Below, in pieces: positions 1,994 to 32,842 of a stretch of 34,625 nucleotides of DNA (position 1 is its first letter; each line of letters begins with the position of its first letter). The translations under genes were made by a program, and so were the position numbers. This stretch comes from Chromera velia (Eukaryota; Sar; Chromeraceae), in NCBI GenBank assembly GCA_018398765.1, contig JAHBMJ010000590.1, positions 10,001-44,625 on the forward strand, given 5' to 3'. Under the pieces are notes generated by a model that saw only the letters and a program-made list of their open reading frames with translations, was not told where the DNA came from and did no database searches.

Positions 1994-2920
1994 CCCTGGA
2001 ATACTTGGTAGAGTGCAATCTAAGTTAAAGCTTAGTGTACAATTTGAGCAATGAACAAGAATTTAAGCATAGTAATGTCTAGATTAATGTAATAAGTTAC
2101 TAATACAACAGAGTCACTCTAAGTCTCTCAGACTGCTACTGCTAGAGTCACTGTTCACTTAATAGTCTTGAGACAGTATAATAAGACTTAAGCTGCATAG
2201 TTTGATATAGTTTACATTGTTGCTATATTGTTGCTACACATGTTGAACATAAATAATTGAATATCATTTTGGAATTTAGGGTGAACTGTGAATACCACTA
2301 GGAATACGAAGCCGCTCGCTGTCATGAGTTACCGCTTGGTATAGCTGACCAAAAGACTTTTTATCCCTGATTGACTGCATCATCAAGAATCTTTATTGTA
2401 TGACCTTCCAGTCTCTCTCACTGACTTTCGTTCGTTGAGCTCGCATATACAGTGATATACAGATCGGGCAATTAAGTGAAATGCTGAGGCTTCAAATTTT
2501 TCTGTACCAGCAACCCCTCTTCGCTCATGATTTGAGATCGATAGAGAGATCGACGTGCTGTCTCTCTCAGACACAGTAGCAGAGACACGGAGAGTCTCGG
2601 ACGGGGAGAGAAAGGAGGGGGGAAGACAAACAATAATCTCTGACAATTAGTTTCTTTCTCGCAAGAGAGGCAGCAGCGAATTCACAAAGCCAATCAGATT
2701 TTTTCCATCGTTGCTCAATTCCTTTGTTCCAGCGCGTTGCTGTTCCCCCCCTTGCCTCTCCCCTGCACGCCCTTCGTTTTGTCCATTCCCTCCGGCTATC
2801 ATCCCCCCTTTCCCCTCACCAACAAGCGATCAGAATTCTGCTTCCACCGACACACCAACTCCACTCACGCAGTCGTCTGTCCACAAAAAAAACTGTCTGT
2901 GAGGAAGAAGAAAAAAACCC
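1994..2920. other. Intergenic stretch, no gene seen
   Basis: AT-rich to about 2400, then mixed, with a pyrimidine-rich part at 2740-2815. No reading frame here resembles a known protein and no element ends were found. Confidence 0.5.
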
Positions 2921-3211
2921 AAAGAAGGAAGGAAGGAAGGAAGGAAGCAAGAAAGCAAGAAAGCAAGAAAGAAAGAAAGAAAGAACTGACGGACAGACGG
3001 ACGGACGGACGGACGGAAGGGAGGAAGGAAGGAAGGAAGGAAGGAAGAAAGAAAGAAAGAAACAAAGAAAGAAAGAAAGAAAGAAAGAAAGAACTGACGG
3101 ACAGACGGACGGACGGACGGACGGAAGGGAGGGAGGAAGGAAGGAAGGAAGGAAGGAAGAAAGAAAGAAAGAAAGAAAGGAAGGAAGGAAGGAAGGAAGG
3201 AAAGAAAAGAA

Positions 3212-3245
<34 letters not shown>

Positions 3246-3255
3246 AAAGAAAGAA

Positions 3256-3291
<36 letters not shown>

Positions 3292-3299
3292 AAAAGGAT
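2921..3299. repeat. Long purine-rich simple-repeat tract (GGAA/GAAA/GACG)n
   Basis: Nearly 380 nt consist of blocks of GGAA, GAAA and GACGGACG units, almost all purine on the plus strand. A compound block, starting GAACTGACGGACAGACGG and running into GGAA units, occurs twice (about 2984 and about 3091), so the array grew partly by larger duplications. Open frames crossing it (Lys/Arg/Glu on plus, Phe/Leu/Ser on minus) are low-complexity artefacts. Confidence 0.95.
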
Positions 3300-3412
3300 G
3301 ACCCCAAGTTTTTCGAGGAGGCAGACAGCACCCCACCAGCCCATCACTTCGTTCAATGACTCAGTGGAGGCAGGGAGACTTCAGTGACCTGAGGCTTTGA
3401 TCTGCCTCGGTG

Positions 3413-3561: not shown

Positions 3562-4236
3562 TTAGAGAAAGTTGGCAGACAAGTTGTTGTACGGATGGTC
3601 AATGAATTTTTCCGACTTCTTATAAGCAGCAATTGCGGGGAGGCTCTCCATGTGGTGCACAAACGCCTTCAGAGACGGAACTTCATCAAGACAGCCAGGG
3701 CTGAGGTTCACGAATTGGTCGAACAGATCATAGAACACCAGGTCAGGGTAGGTGAGTGCCTTGCCGAGAAAATAAGGTCCCTCATACTTATCAAAAAACG
3801 CTGCCAACTCCTTTAATTTTGCTGGAAGAAATTGAGAAACCACTTCAGTCTTGAGTGACTCAAAATTGGCAGGACGGCAGTAGGACATCTGCACATACTT
3901 CGACCTCACATCCTGAGACTGGCACAGCAGCATATGTGCCAACGCCCTTTCGGACGGGTCCTTCCCGGCGATTCCAATCTTCTCTGCCAAGTGCAGAATG
4001 ATCGCGTTGGTCTGGGAGATCTTCATCTCACCGTCGTACAGATACGGGAGGTTGGGGAAGTCGAGACCTTTCGAGTACTTCACATCCATCCACATGCCTC
4101 TATCCCAGCTCCCGTCCTCTTTCTTCTGGAGGGTGTAGAGATCCTCTGTGTACTCCAACCCACCGTATTCAAGCACCAGACGAATGGGCTGACCCAGACC
4201 CCTGATAGACCAGTACCCCAGAGTCAGCTTGGACAT
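3562..4236 (-). CDS. GST: Glutathione S-transferase, Mu class
   Basis: Cytosolic GST, 224 aa, which conjugates reduced glutathione to electrophiles; the length is normal for the class. The N-terminus LTLGYWSIRGLGQPIRL carries the catalytic Tyr (Y8) and the Mu/Sigma-type GYW.IRG motif. FPNLPYLYDG holds the cis-Pro that contacts glutathione, and the following SQTNAI is the glutathione gamma-Glu site (SNAI in most family members). The all-helical C-domain contains the GPYFLG.....DLVFYDLFDQ block that is conserved in Mu-class enzymes. The ATG at 4236 was chosen because it starts exactly at the fold; an in-frame ATG 52 codons upstream (4392) would add a low-similarity leader. The gene is uninterrupted, unlike its intron-rich neighbours, and ends in TAA at 3562. 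Confidence 0.95.
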   Translation of the reverse strand: MSKLTLGYWSIRGLGQPIRLVLEYGGLEYTEDLYTLQKKEDGSWDRGMWMDVKYSKGLDFPNLPYLYDGEMKISQTNAIILHLAEKIGIAGKDPSERALAHMLLCQSQDVRSKYVQMSYCRPANFESLKTEVVSQFLPAKLKELAAFFDKYEGPYFLGKALTYPDLVFYDLFDQFVNLSPGCLDEVPSLKAFVHHMESLPAIAAYKKSEKFIDHPYNNLSANFL

Positions 4237-5600
4237 GGCGGAAAGACCAAAAGAACGACAGAAGGCAGCAGAAACTACGCAAAGCCGCACACGGCCGCTG
4301 CTCAGTCGAATGAGAAGAAAGAAAAAAGACAGATCAACGCTCGCCACGTAGTTGTCCCAGTTCGAGGAACTGCTGTCTGCTGAGAGTCTCACAAGGAAAT
4401 TTGCTGGCCCATACAGTTCCCCAACGATGAACTTTTGACTGCAGGCATTTGGGAGACGGCAGTGACTGCATGAAACGAGACGGCACGTAGCGGCGCCTCG
4501 TTGTTGGCATGTTATGCACTTACCAAACAGCGGGCCGCGGCAAGGCCGGGACTGGCGGGCCGCGCGGGACCCAGTACGTGCACACGCTTGCTTGCGAAGC
4601 CCGTACGTTCAAGATAGCTCTGTGATACGTCAAGATAGTTCAGGATCGATTAAAACTCGCGCGCTGATGCACTGACATTGGTTAATGCTTTTGCTAACTT
4701 TTTCATCGTTTCATCGTATAATGGCATGTGTCGTCGGCCTGTTGCTTAGACCAATAAGAAGTGAGTAAAAATGTAGTCATCGGTGTAAGCTAATACCTGG
4801 CAGTGGACTACAGGGATTCCCGGAACATAAAATCCTATCCTACTAAAATCTAATAGAAATTAATAGAAATTCAATTTTAAAGTTGATTTTTCATTATTTT
4901 TCATAATAGACAGAGAGCAGATAACGGTACCATAGCTAGTACCACAGATAACCACAGAGAGAGGGTGAAACAAAAAATAAAAGCTAGAATAAAAGTTTAA
5001 AAAAAATAAACTCTACAGACTAAAACTCTGAGTCTAGCTCTGAGTCAGTCTAGCTAAAAATCTGAGTCAATCGAAGGATTTGATATGAATAAATCTTTTA
5101 ATAATGATCCGTAGAATCACGAAGATAGAGTTTATGCTTGGACTTCTCCTAGTTAAGCTAAGTTAGCATTTGCTAATTCTAGAACAGGCTCACAGTCGGG
5201 CAAAGCGATAGTCTGGATCACCGAAACGGCTGAGAATAAAGTTTTTTAAGACCGCTCCCCACGTGAACGCAAAGACAAGCTTTCAGGGGCTAGTAGCCAG
5301 ACGAACGCAGCAGCGGGCGATCGCGAAGCAAAGGCGGCACGCATGTGAGAAGGACCGAACGACGGCCGCAGCGGCGGCGGAACGGCGCCGGGAGGTAGGA
5401 CACTACACATGGATAGAGTGCTAGCTAGCAGAAGTTCAAGCCCAAACTTCATCTCCTTCACTCTACGAATGGCTATTAAAGGATCTATTCATATCCAATC
5501 CTTCAGCGGATTCAGATCTTCAGGCTGAGCTAGAGTCTGTGGAGTTTATAGATCCGTCTCTCTGTCTAGAACTCACCTCTGGTCTAGCTCTCCGTCTGTC
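4237..5600. other. Intergenic region with GC-rich edges and an AT-rich core
   Basis: The 5' flank of the GST gene runs to about 4500. A very GC-rich block (4528-4572, GGGCCGCG motifs) follows, then AT-rich sequence with short direct repeats (AATAGAAATT near 4852-4871, TCTGAGTC near 5026-5068), then a second GC-rich block at 5296-5395. The pattern suggests a transposon relic, but I found no matching inverted ends or coding sequence. Confidence 0.4.
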
Positions 5601-22320: not shown

Positions 22321-24340
22321 TCACATTGGCAGCCGAGCCCCCTCTTCTTCGTTATCATCCGGAACGTCGCAGTCAAAGTCAATTCCCCCCTCCTCTTCGC
22401 CCATGTCGTTCGGCACGGCGCCGACTTCCTCCTCCACCTGCACACACTCACGTTCGATCATGCATCCGTCACGTTATTGATGCATGCACCTGTGTTGTTG
22501 AATACAAAAGAGGAAGTGGGGGACACCCATACGTCTACAGAAAGACACAAACGCCCTTACACACCGACGTGCGGGCAGGGTGGAAGGAAAAACGAGAGCG
22601 CAGAAGAGCTAGCGAAACGCAGGGAGAGACAGTGAAAGGGAGACGCAAAAATACAACAAGGAGAAAGAGGCCAGCTAGATGAAAGTGAGCTGTCACCACA
22701 CATGCAATCCCATCTACCTACACACGGACCCTGCAGGTGTCGATCGATGCGTTGCATGTCGATCACAATCGAGACTCACCAACCAACCAATGAACCAACA
22801 GAGCAACAGAGCGACCTACCAAATATCCTTCAGGTTCCCCTTTGACCTTCACGCCCTTCTCGAGATCATCCCCTACTCTCCCCTCTGCCTCCCCGTCTCT
22901 TCTCATTCCTTCCTCTGCAGTCATCACCGGACTCATCATTGACACCACACTCCCCTGCACTGCCCTGCCTGCAGTCGAAGGAGGGACACCGAGTCCTCCT
23001 TGGAATCGCATAGACTCTCCTGTCACGCTGGCACGTTTAGACTTGGGGATTACAACACTCCGAAGACGGCTCTCTTCCCCCCTCTCTGCGCTAGTCTCAC
23101 TACGCCACACGAGGTAGAAGTGTGCAGCACCCACGATCCAGGTGACGGTCGCGATGGTATTGATCATCACCCAGTCTCTCCCCAGAGGTGTGAGGAAGAT
23201 CCACACCCACGCCAAAGAGGTGAGAGGAAGCCAACCGAACACGAGGGGCATCCTCCATGGAACGAGCGACATCTCACCCTTATAGTCGGGAAAGAACAGA
23301 CGCTGTCGGAGCATCGCAAGCGGCACCGACCCCACGATGCATGCCACGGCGAGCACGCCGATCCATGGATTGAGGAGCCCGATGGTCTGAACATACGAAA
23401 CGACGAGAAGCTTCAGGGTGTACAGTTCTCTGCTTCCGTACAATTCTTTGGGGTTCGTCTTGACGAAGATGACCGACAAGACAGGGTTTGATTTCAGCAT
23501 CTTCCCCAATTTGCTCTCACCCCGTGACAGACTTTCAAAGAAATCGGAAATGAACTTCAGACCTTGAGAGATCAAGAAGGACAACCAGAGGAAGGCGAAA
23601 CCTTCCGCTGCCGTTCCCATCAGAACCATTTTGTACGGAGGTGACATGGGCAGTGTTAAAAAGCCCATTTGGACTTGGAGAGGTTTCAATGAAATCGCAG
23701 CCAACGTATTGACAACGACGAGGAAGATGTGAATGTCGAACAAAAGGCCGTCTTTGACTATTTTGCTGGGCTCCTTCTCTACCCACGCAGAGATAGACTT
23801 GACGCAAAGAATCATAATCGTGTTGAAAAAGAAAATCAAGAAGCAGAAGGCAAGGCGTTGTACTTGGAAGAAAGCTGTGGCATTCAGGAAGAACTCAACC
23901 ACCACTGTGACCGTGAGAACTCCAATCGCAGCTGCCCAAACCATCAGGGGGCCAGTGACAGGTCTGTGCGAAGGTTTCATGCTTCTGAAGGGAAGCCGTT
24001 TTCTACATTCCCACGGAGGTCTGTTGAGGAAGAGGAACACAGCGACGCAGAGAGGACTGGCGATGTTCACGAGATGCAACACTGCCATCAGACAGTTGAC
24101 GGTTGGATTGTCCATATCCAGCATGGCCAGGTTGGTGATCACGGTCATGGGCTTCAGTACGGTATTCCCGAAGGGTAGGACGAGACTGAAGATCCCGATA
24201 AGGACTGGGAGCGTTCCTGTGCCCATCATTGCCAGTGAGAAGGCCCGTGAGAACTGAAGGCAGAGCTCTGCAACAGCATCACGGTCGCACTCCCCTTGTA
24301 CAGAGGCCCTGCCAGTGGTGGTGGGCACAGAATTCCGCAT
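22321..24340 (-). CDS. Polytopic membrane protein of unknown function, two exons
   Basis: Exon 1 (24340-22820, 507 codons, true ATG) joins exon 2 (22437-22321) in phase 0 through GTAGGT...TGTGCAG, giving 545 aa. Hydrophobic segments suggest about ten membrane spans, near residues 37-58, 62-76, 90-108, 132-155, 162-184, 203-222, 244-266, 312-355 (two), 376-397 and 403-425. Charged loops such as RPPWECRKR lie between spans. A hydrophilic tail starts at about residue 430. Exon 2 adds a strongly acidic end (GEEEGGIDFDCDVPDDNEEE). I do not recognise the family. The spacing recalls cation exchangers of the CaCA type, but I see neither of their alpha-repeat motifs. The gene looks intact and under coding constraint: one 507-codon frame without a stop. 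Confidence 0.8.
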
Positions 24341-29433: not shown

Positions 29434-30732
29434 GTTTGGAAGTCACATGGGTGCTCTTGCAAGACTTTCGGATGATGACAAGAGGAGTGAGTTTGTTGTC
29501 GGGTCCTCGAATGAGGATGCCAGTGAATCGGTCGTGAGCATCGGTGGGAACATCTGCGCTGTGCTGTTCAGGGAAATCCACCCCTCCAATCGCCTGTACT
29601 CCCTCATTTCTATTGCTACCTCCGCCGGCAGGACTGGCAGCAGCCCTGTGCAGAGGGTGGGAGGGAGGGGCATCAGATGCATCATCTGGAATGGGTAGGG
29701 GGCGTGGTGGCATCTCCACGCTGTTTGAAGCCCAATCAGGACCCCCCTAACAGGATACAACCCCGCGTTTCACTGGTTTGACGTATTGGGGGTGGGTTTT
29801 GAGGATGTCCTAGACATCTGTGTTCGGTTGTTTTCGGGTTACGACGGTGGTGCTTTTATTTTTTTCATATAGCCACACCACTTCACTCCCTGCTAGTTCA
29901 ATACCGCTCTCTGTTGTCCTTAATATACCGATATCTTCAATGAGGAATCGGAAGGGAGGAGGGATGCTAAATGCCTTCTCCCACTGACTCATCCTGAGGA
30001 CTTTGCTGTAGAGCTTTGCACGTGTCAGTGCCACCTCCCTGGCTTGATGACCCCAGAGGGATTTGGGGCATGAACCGAACCGACGTTTCCATTCGGCTCT
30101 GAGGGCTGCTAGCTCGGTTCTTCTGTGGCGGTTCTTTCCTTCCACAAACCCGAGTGGCCCCTTTTCTCCTGCAGGGTTATCGAAGAACGTTATGCCTCTG
30201 CGTTCAACGAAATCTCCTAGTAGTCCTCCACGAAATTCGGGTGCCTTGTCACATCGGATTCTGCCTGCTACGGCTTTCGGACCTTCCTTCTAGAATTGAA
30301 CATCCCCAAACGACTCCATAAACTCAATGTGGTCATGCATTCCATCAACGGAGTGGTTACGGGATTTGAGGGGATAGTCGAGATCGAGGCCGCTGTACCC
30401 ATCTAGTACACTTAGGCAGCATGCATGAGGCCCGTTGACCTCATCATCATTTGGGAACCAGTGATCGAGTTGCATGATTTGGAAGGGCCCACCCGCATCC
30501 TCATGTCGGGTGGGGACAGGTGCTAGAGTGGGAATGGTTGCGTTTTTGAGGGGACAGAGCCGGCACTCTATCTCAAGCCTTTTCTAGTCTTCAGTCCTTG
30601 CGTGCATTCCCTTGCTTGCCAGTGTGGGCTCTAGTTTGTCTCGACCGACGTGTCCAAATCGTCTGTGGTATGCCCTCAGTTCCTTAAAACTGATTGTTCT
30701 CTCTCTGATTGCATGCCTATGCCCCCCCAGTC
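29434..30732 (-). pseudogene. Copia integrase region, inactivated
   Basis: From the high-coordinate side: HRRFGH...CRLCPL forms the HHCC zinc-binding domain. DHW...LSVLDGYSGL carries the first Asp of the DDE core, IRCDKAPEFRGG the second, and FVEGKNRH the Glu. LWGHQAREVALTRAKL matches the integrase end, and a Pro-rich linker follows toward the RT. All of it is in one frame except for in-frame stops at about 30586, 30292, 29812 and 29749. A frameshift at the G run near 30722-30728 separates it from the upstream pre-integrase part. With these breaks no functional enzyme can be made. Confidence 0.88.
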
Positions 30733-30869
30733 TTCTGCATTGCTTCTTTGACTTCGTCTGCTATGGGAATGAATGTGGTTGTGAATGGAAGGTTAGAGGT
30801 GGCATCTCCCTTCGGATTCTCAACTACCACCTCAATGAGAAAACCCCTCGCGTCTTGCACGATTACGTA

Positions 30870-32242
30870 CACGGCTTGCCTAGTCAGACATACAAACTCC
30901 TAGGAATACTGCCTGGACAACCCTAGGGAAGTCTGGGCATATTCGAAGGAATGCCTAGGAGATTTAGGGTACATGCCTGGTGGACCCTAGGGGTCTCCCG
31001 GGTAAGTGCCTAGTAGACCTTAGGTACCATCTAGGCAAGTTCCTATCTTATCTTAGGCAGTCTCTTAGCAACATCTTGAGTTTTTCTAGACAACATTAGC
31101 TGAGTTTTCAACTTTAAAAACATAAGTAAAAGTATTTAATTGATGAATATTTACAGGAATGTCATGCCCACGTTTGGTCAGGCATGTCTTCATCTCGCTC
31201 TGCCCCTGCTCTTTTATCGAGAAGCTCTGACTTGTAGTATTCAAGAGAGCTGAAAAGCACCTTACCCTTCTAAAAAGAAGCTCAAGTATGTGATGTATGA
31301 AATTTTGCTTCGCGTGGCGTTTTTCGCAGGGATTTGCAAAGAATTGCATATCAATGTTGGAGGCGAGGCAATGAAGAGAGCACTTAAAAACAAAGAGGCA
31401 CAGATGGTGAATGATCGAAGAAAGAAAAAAACTATAAGTGCAGCAGCGGCAGGCAACTCTTCAGGAAGTTATGAAGAGGGGGAAGGAGGAGAGGATGAAG
31501 AGGGGGAGGAGGAGGAGGAGGCGGGGAGGGAGGAAAGAGCAGAGGTACCTACCGGGCGAGGACGCTCCGGAAGAGGTGCAAGGGGAGGCAGGGGTGCAAG
31601 GAGAGGCAGGGGGGCAGGGCGCGGAGTTGCGCCAGCCCCACCGGCTTTGGCCGATGGGTCTGCTTCTGGCCAAGGGCAGTGAGGGGAGAGGAGGGAAACT
31701 GTGGAGAGGGGGGGGTGGCAGACATGGAGAGGGGAGGGGGGGGTAGAGGCATCTACAGGGCGAGAACGCTCTAAGGGGGTGACTACCAACAAGGGTGTGA
31801 GGGGACGGAGAAGGGGAAGGGAAGGGATTGCAGCTACTGCCCAAGCCTCAACGACTGTGGCTTGGGCTATGCATGGCTAATGGGTTTGTTTCTGGGTAAA
31901 ACACTTTGGAGGTTGCCTTGAAAAAATATTTTGCATGCTGACTCTTAATGCTCTAAAATCATATTATGATTATTTCTATATAAGTATCATTATCTAACAC
32001 CGTTTTTTTAAAGAACTCTTTATCTAAGCTTACTTAGGATAGGATAGGAACTTACCTAGATGGTGCCTAGGAATGTTTTAGTGTTTGCCCGGTAGCTCCG
32101 TAGGAGTCACTAGGCACTTGCCTGGTAGACCCCAGGTAGACTGCCTAGAAGACCCCCCGGTCTACTAGGCATGTTTCCTAATCTACCTAGTAGTTTCATA
32201 GCATTTTACCGGGAGTTTGTATGTCTGACTAGGCAAGCCGTG
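30870..32242. mobile_element. 1373-bp TIR element nested in copia (element B), long subrepeat-rich TIRs
   Basis: The ends CACGGCTTGCC...(30870) and ...GGCAAGCCGTG (32242) are exact inverses for about 30 bp. Looser pairing continues for about 200 bp (to about 31074 and from about 32026) and is made of repeated GCCTAGG / GCCTGGTAGACC motifs. TA flanks both ends (30868-30869, 32243-32244). Removing the element with one TA fuses the copia frame ...HREGKDSY to VIVQDARGF without a stop. The element holds one frame (31290-31682) that is not transposase-like. Mariner-type superfamilies use TA targets, but no such enzyme is present here. Confidence 0.9.
31290..31682 (+). CDS. Hypothetical RG-rich protein inside element B
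   Basis: 130 codons from ATG to TGA. The first 50 residues are ordinary and basic (VAFFAGICKELHINVGGEAMKR). An acidic Glu/Gly stretch follows, then an RGG-like tail (GRGRSGRGARGGRGARRG). A diverged copy of the tail coding sequence recurs at about 31740-31880 in the same element, out of order with this frame. Low-complexity composition may alone keep the frame open. A nucleic-acid-binding role is only suggested by composition. Confidence 0.3.
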   Translation: MMYEILLRVAFFAGICKELHINVGGEAMKRALKNKEAQMVNDRRKKKTISAAAAGNSSGSYEEGEGGEDEEGEEEEEAGREERAEVPTGRGRSGRGARGGRGARRGRGAGRGVAPAPPALADGSASGQGQ

Positions 32243-32244
32243 TA

Positions 32245-32842
32245 GGAGTCTTTTCCCTCACGATGGAGGAGGGTTTCCCCCTCTTCATGATCTTCCCGTA
32301 TCAGATAGGGGACTGGGTCTACGGTCAGATACACCCACAGCAGCAGAACCTTCCATCCTTTCCCTCTCACTCGATTCTTTTGGGCAATGCAAGCGAGACG
32401 AGAGATCTAAATTTTCTTTAGCCACCCCGAATGAACCCTCACACGGCTCACTTCAGACTACCATCCCCCCAAGCTCTTTTTCCCAGCCAAGAGGTGCAGT
32501 TGTACATGAGTCTATATGCATCCGTACAAACAGGCAGCCTGGCGGATTGACTTGACTGACCATTGATTGAACTTGTTTTGGGGAATCGGGTGGCTTCCTC
32601 TCGATCTCGTGCTCTGGAACCACGTACGCCTTGTGCGTCTCCGTCACGAACCAGGGCTTTGGTGCCCCATCGCAGAACTAAAACGTGGTGCCCTGATGTT
32701 GTTTGATGATCCCTCCCTCCGCATCCTGAGAATGTTGCAAAGGGAGAGAGAAAAGAGATGAGAAAGGAAGAACAGTCATACACATATGCTGTCGAAAATA
32801 CTCAGAAAGGTGGCCTGCCTTCTGAGATGCTTTCCCAGTCAG
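32245..32842 (-). pseudogene. Copia upstream coding region (gag / pre-integrase), degenerate
   Basis: Just right of element B the minus strand reads GKGWKVLLLWVYLT and VPYLIREDHEEG. This runs in frame into the pre-integrase part at 30867-30735 once element B is removed, and a TAG lies upstream of it near 32405. Further on (about 32690-32580), WFVTETHKAYVVPEHE looks coding but I cannot assign it; it may be gag. No zinc knuckle or protease Asp motif was found, so part of gag is lost or unrecognisable. Confidence 0.55.

Follow-up and report, generated by a model that had tools for sequence, protein, structure and literature searches.

DNA transposons of the CMCT group mostly have 5'-CA..TG-3' ends and generate target-site duplications of 2-5 bp, according to excerpts of PMC12730594. 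In CACTA elements the subterminal repeats span several hundred nucleotides and there are two ORFs (as described in part of PMC8978399), and 3-bp duplications are given in excerpts on plant CACTA elements (PMC8978399), fungal EnSpm elements (PMC12730594) and the CACTA families of Capsaspora (PMC4007536). Duplications of 2 bp occur in 7 of 14 copies of SmTRC1, an animal relative of CACTA from which the CACTA pentamer is absent (PMC1636069, in the section on this element). Here we describe Element B, a 1373-bp segment within a 34,625-nucleotide stretch of a Chromera velia contig (hereafter the window). With moderate confidence, we read it as a non-autonomous, internally deleted cut-and-paste transposon of CACTA/EnSpm-like design. 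No printed description of the Element B family was found in searches of the open-licence literature, including that on Chromera velia and on alveolate transposons, and the whole words 'CACTA', 'TIR' and 'MITE' are absent from PMC4501334. The family may already be included, without a name, in some automated repeat annotation.

Boundaries and empty sites of Element B

The features that delimit the element in the window are as follows.

30868..30869, no strand: target-site duplication TA, left copy; 10 of the 11 paralogous sites have one TA only
30870..32242, plus strand: whole Element B, an internally deleted copy, 1373 bp; one of at least 16 two-ended copies
30870..30900, plus strand: left terminal inverted repeat (TIR), 31 bp, starts CACGG
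30901..31069, plus strand: left subterminal stretch containing CCTAGG/GCCTGG repeats; inner limit placed 200 bp from the end
32043..32211, minus strand: right subterminal stretch, a loosely inverted counterpart containing the same repeats; inner limit placed 200 bp from the end
32212..32242, minus strand: right TIR, 31 bp, finishes CCGTG
32243..32244, no strand: target-site duplication TA, right copy

The inverted arms at 30868-30900 and 32212-32244 are complementary at 33 of 33 positions. Since the outer two bases on each side are a palindromic TA, the TIR itself is 31 bp. The initial annotation, made from the letters of the window, had noticed about 30 bp of exact inverted ends with TA on both sides, and both observations hold: the 31-bp TIR (30870-30900 and 32212-32242) is perfect and its flanks are TA/TA. 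Within each of the 16 two-ended copies recovered from the genome, the left and right 31-bp ends are identical at 25-31 positions. The outermost left letter is C in 13/16 copies and T in 3/16, and the outermost right letter is G in 13/16 and A in 3/16, so that the end pattern of most copies can be written (C/T)ACGG..CCGT(G/A).

The resemblance between the two ends continues beyond the TIR. At positions 32-230 the local alignment scores of the 16 copies are 32-46, compared with shuffle maxima of 14-21 (100 shuffles for each copy). The motifs CCTAGG, GCCTGG and GCCTAG, a set picked after the finding, occur 10 and 7 times in the two terminal 200-bp stretches of the window copy and 0 times in the 973 bp between them; base shuffling of both ends (2000 shuffles) gave a mean count of 0.5 and a maximum of 6. 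The looser, motif-packed ends of roughly 200 bp that had been described for the window copy are thus borne out.

To locate empty sites of the window copy, its left and right 300-bp flanks were searched separately, which returned 33 and 13 rows of matches. Both flanks matched on 11 other contigs, and in 10 of these the flank matches share exactly 2 bases, a single TA; at the eleventh site (C3438) a gap of 17 bases separates the end of the left match from the junction. Contigs matched by the left flank only (n = 21; 16 at 70-74% identity and 5 at 80-87%) were left out of the count. A copy with a CT/AG target, on C2344, was searched natively with 500-bp flanks. Among the best 40 of 67 candidates (91 rows), both flanks matched on at least 22 contigs, with an exact 2-bp overlap in 21/22, a count that allows for the few element bases that chance to extend a match. 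The exception is C47, where the right match starts 21 bases inside. A further contig, C1327, has the left flank alone.

These paralogous empty sites prove that Element B is an insertion. A segment native to copia, or boundaries lying elsewhere, had been named in the initial annotation as findings that would speak against a transposon, and what we found instead is 31 loci (10 + 21) that lack the segment and close with exactly 2 bp. When the 400-bp flanks of the 16 copies were compared, C2521 alone resembled the locus of another copy (C2789, repeat-like), so the copies sit in different contexts; the sequence collected around the copies themselves contained no empty site. Given the closure at paralogous loci and this variety of contexts, it is extremely improbable that the segment is a normal part of a retroelement or an artefact of assembly, and nothing was found in favour of either.

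The window copy interrupts a reading frame, of which the two parts are:

32245..32406, minus strand: interrupted retroelement-like frame, upstream part
30720..30869, minus strand: interrupted retroelement-like frame, downstream part, same phase as 32245-32406

The frame at 32406-32245 is in phase with that at 30869-30720 after discounting the element and one TA (1375 bp, 1 mod 3), a continuity obtained by phase arithmetic with the flanks not joined. The initial annotation had proposed that a copia frame re-opens when the element is removed. The in-phase frames uphold the re-opening, while the name 'copia' for this target is weakly supported, by a single GAG-pre-integrase match below the Pfam cut-off (E 0.046) and by the order of the frames as judged by eye. 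Frames beside the C2344 copy resemble copia integrase and reverse transcriptase by eye and matched no Pfam model at E 0.01. Frames from the window target have no match in the C2344 sequence, so the two copies occupy different repeat families; by eye, both targets are retroelement-like.

Copies of the family and their target duplications

The assembly that we searched comprises 4040 contigs and 177.8 Mb. The 30-bp end of Element B, with up to 3 mismatches, gave at least 39 matches on 24 contigs, and a reversed-letter control gave 0. Copies were collected by combining this search with searches using 87-bp and 101-bp ends, and the counts are lower bounds: at least 16 two-ended copies of 792-1772 bp and at least 8 contigs with one end (C325, C676, C743, C1798, C3275, C3416, C3637 and C4020). 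Both ends lie within 3 mismatches on 15 contigs, and the second end of the C148 copy is more diverged. Shared end regions of the copies are 91-97% identical to the window copy. The genome search that had been proposed as a check therefore recovered full copies as well as empty sites, and it supports the earlier view of a mobile, non-autonomous element that belongs to a family with common ends and breaks a retroelement-like frame. A longer copy bearing a transposase was sought by its ends; the largest two-ended copy is 1772 bp and no transposase was seen. Among the one-ended copies, those on C676, C3416 and C743 continue into sequence without a match in other copies, as does that on C4020 after two retained pieces of the parent; the C1798 copy ends at the end of its contig, and the C3637 copy is known from one end match alone.

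The 2 bp immediately outside each end are identical in 15/16 two-ended copies, compared with 1, 0, 1, 0, 1, 0 and 0 of 16 copies for flank lengths of 1, 3, 4, 5, 6, 7 and 8 bp. Based on flank composition, the chance of at least 15 matches at 2 bp is about 2.5e-17. The 15 duplications comprise nine dinucleotides (TA 5, AT 2, TG 2, and CA, AG, TC, GA, GT and AA 1 each). Those of the C2521 and C2789 copies are weaker cases because their flanks are short repeated or AT-rich sequence. The sole two-ended copy without a target duplication (C1976:22002-23209, CT/AG) is perhaps a recombinant between two copies.

TA is favoured, being duplicated at the window copy and four others (5/15, against 4.2% of flank dinucleotides), and the initial annotation had proposed a TA-targeting transposase. 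The TA at the window copy is a likeness to IS630 and Tc1/mariner elements, but their strict TA targeting is not seen here: 10/15 duplications are of other dinucleotides, and the copy at a CT/AG target has clean empty sites in 21/22 cases. Assigning the non-TA copies to another family is argued against by the identity of their end regions to those of the window copy. The nine duplicated dinucleotides and the empty sites at the CT/AG target rule out TA specificity. We therefore revise the earlier claim to a duplication of 2 bp without a fixed sequence; with it the comparison to IS630/Tc1/mariner falls, and an element of that type, or a similar TA-specific transposon, is very improbable.

Internal deletions, gene remnants and a second TIR family

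Three further features lie in the interior of the window copy.

31171..31269, minus strand: putative accessory-gene remnant, last ~33 codons, reads out of the left end; 79% identity, E 1.2e-9
31254..31679, plus strand: second-gene 3' remnant, stop-to-stop frame, reads out of the right end; homologous part 31266-31454
31264..31270, no strand: internal deletion junction between a 395-bp left prefix and a ~973-bp right suffix

Each two-ended copy combines a left prefix of the C3275 copy, between 258 and ~1379 bp long, with a right suffix of the window type, between 334 and 973 bp long. In some copies filler lies between the two (~670 bp in C148, ~230 bp in C663 and ~80 bp in C3818 and C3691). One junction, 864|1040, is common to six copies (C2521, C1976, C3511, C1367, C2789 and C1942), a further one is common to C484 and C810, and a third to C3818 and C3691. 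This nested prefix and suffix structure, together with the repeated junctions, points to internal deletions, after which certain of the shortened forms multiplied. The copies are nested internal deletions of a longer parent, of ~2.6 kb or more, that carried the 3' parts of two outward-reading genes. The length is taken from the C3275 copy, in which the left end (4182) and the second gene (1543) are 2.6 kb apart if no foreign DNA lies between; this copy was read down to 2592, and its right end was not found by the end searches. Judged by this nested structure, the copies share both ends with a longer parent, here pieced together from parts, and have lost its interior, as is characteristic of non-autonomous derivatives. 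The dSpm elements are likewise internal-deletion derivatives of En/Spm.

Over the 574 columns common to all 16 copies, pairs of copies differ by 5.5% on average (range 3.1-8.0). Out of 290 departures from the majority letter, 243 are C>T or G>A. How often these changes occur depends on context (CG 17.6%, CA 8.1%, CC 5.0%, CT 3.3%), a pattern of decay which suggests cytosine methylation or a RIP-like, repeat-directed process acting on repeats in this genome.

The match to the accessory gene extends a few bases past the deletion junction in the window copy, and a further 14 two-ended copies matched the same remnant. Matches to the second gene were confined to C663, C325, C3275 and the window copy. 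An arrangement of two outward-reading genes is unlike the usual layout of plant CACTA elements. Relatives of the accessory gene occur on 15 contigs without Element B ends; their E values range between 4e-112, for the query's own locus, and 0.0014. Ends of a second TIR family are present on six of the 15 contigs, and neither family's end was found on the other nine.

The complete element of this second family (C3682:70941-71954) is 1014 bp, with the TIR CACGGTTGCCCC..GGGCAACCATG, CACGG ends and a TT/TT duplication; the 2-bp duplication of this family was seen in the one copy tested. It has 11 of the subterminal motifs in its terminal 400 bp and 1 between (shuffle maximum 4), and it encloses an antisense gene related to the accessory gene of Element B at 29-40% identity. 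The end pattern of the family occurs 9 times on 6 contigs (control 0): both ends are also present on C21 and C3805, and one end on C3003, C1567 and C1839. In 15 Element B copies the accessory-gene match stops at a distance of 295-312 bp from the left end, and on all six contigs with an end of the second family it stops 306-309 bp from the TIR. Based on this constant distance in both families, the accessory gene is best seen as an inherited part of such elements.

A relative at C3873:27440-28040 is a 200-aa open frame, part of a 434-aa frame, that contains a run of acidic residues and a domain with the motif YGWF. None of the accessory-protein pieces had a Pfam match above the cut-off, those of the C3873 relative all falling below it, and the one piece tried against PDB chains, from C3873, had no match. 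A hAT-type transposase had been considered by eye for the left antisense remnant (TRWSAV); it is unsupported, with no Pfam match and a relative that has the acidic and YGWF features. The left gene is not recognisably a transposase, and we infer an accessory role.

It is tempting to group the two families as an undescribed cut-and-paste lineage defined by CACGG ends, an unfixed 2-bp duplication and a new end-linked accessory protein, a tentative proposal that we place on the unlikely side. The broader idea of a lineage of DNA transposons that belongs to none of the described superfamilies, in which transposase and accessory protein are both new, would fit the common plan of the two TIR families, the lack of a Pfam match above the cut-off for either gene remnant and the accessory piece without a PDB match. 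We consider it quite unlikely, given that a transposase missing from deleted copies would account for the absent match and that a known group already accommodates the ends, duplication and repeats.

Comparison with described superfamilies and neighbouring features

That group is CACTA/EnSpm (CMCT), which the CACGG..CCGTG ends, 2-bp duplications and subterminal repeats of Element B fit best, in the sense that the element works like a member without being filed as one. At the window copy the ends have the 5'-CA..TG-3' form, with CACGG in place of the canonical CACTA pentamer. The duplication lies within 2-5 bp and follows no sequence rule (15/16 copies, nine dinucleotides, and empty sites in 10/11 and 21/22 cases), and the subterminal regions are arrays of short direct and inverted repeats. 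Ends packed with subrepeats, regarded in the initial annotation as unusual for Tc1/mariner-like elements, are normal for CACTA elements as described in part of PMC8978399, and the Tc1/mariner frame no longer applies.

Element B and CACTA/EnSpm elements thus have in common CAC..GTG ends, a short unfixed duplication, subterminal repeat arrays, two genes and internal-deletion derivatives. Element B differs in having CACGG rather than CACTA, a 2-bp duplication where 3 bp is usual, gene remnants that read outward, and no transposase seen. A DDE transposase with C(2)C and H(3-4)H motifs was not seen in the copies read. A profile search of the genome with PF02992 and PF18759 gave 0 matches, which says little because the controls were nearly silent (matched in 0 and 1 of 14 genomes, none above the cut-off). 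SmTRC1 and the animal TRC elements are alike in being CACTA relatives with 2-bp duplications, whereas SmTRC1 has CCC ends, a 54-bp TIR and Transposase_21, a model without a match here (PMC1636069, in the section consulted on SmTRC1). Plavaka elements, also of the CMCT group, have 2-bp or 3-bp duplications but end in TGT or CATCA (excerpts of PMC12730594); the 0 matches to PF18759 should be read with its nearly silent control.

Other known superfamilies have to be weighed against the CACTA/EnSpm-like reading, namely ISL2EU or another PHIS lineage with 2-bp duplications, or a relative of IS3EU. Excerpts of PMC12730594 give duplications of 0, 2 or 3 bp for PHIS-related elements, and for IS3EU of rust fungi they give ends of TAYGG..CCRTA with TIRs of more than 30 bp, which come near those of Element B. 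The same rust-fungi families, however, have 6-bp duplications, unlike the 2 bp at the empty sites of Element B. The TIRs of ISL2EU usually start with GG, not absolutely so (part of PMC4482050), whereas those of Element B start with CA or TA, and arrays of subterminal repeats are a described feature of CACTA elements (PMC8978399, in part). On balance we regard an origin in one of these superfamilies as unlikely.

Under the CACTA/EnSpm-like reading, a transposase supplied by an intact relative would bind the ends of Element B and cut the element out. The excised element would then be joined to a 2-bp staggered cut, repair of which would yield the duplication. The transposase, or else the accessory protein encoded by the gene that stops ~300 bp from the left end, could bind to the subterminal repeats. 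Deletions may have arisen when repair of the excision gap stopped early, with some forms (such as 864|1040, in six copies) subsequently multiplying.

Direct evidence from empty sites corrects the claim of TA targeting and gives an odd element a sensible group. If the CACTA/EnSpm-like reading is true, Element B contributes a cleanly bounded family from a genome in which, by our searches, such elements have no printed account, and the end-linked accessory gene, common to two TIR families, offers a handle on the intact parent and on the function of the subterminal repeats.

Several features beside the copies or elsewhere in the window were also observed. The copy at C1942:3511-4185 adjoins an open frame that encodes a MYND zinc finger (E 1e-6); this copy may have inserted into a host gene or beside one. 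The copy at C484:31309-32211 is ~160 bp from a frame with the reverse transcriptase domain RVT_1 (E 2.3e-8). In the window, short repeated peptides (KERKK, TDGRTDG) in frames of both strands at 2724-3387 suggest, from the frames, a tandem repeat array. The minus strand carries a glutathione S-transferase gene at 3562-4392 (GST_C_3, E 1.9e-19) and, at 22763-24340, a 525-aa open frame without a Pfam match that by eye resembles a membrane protein.
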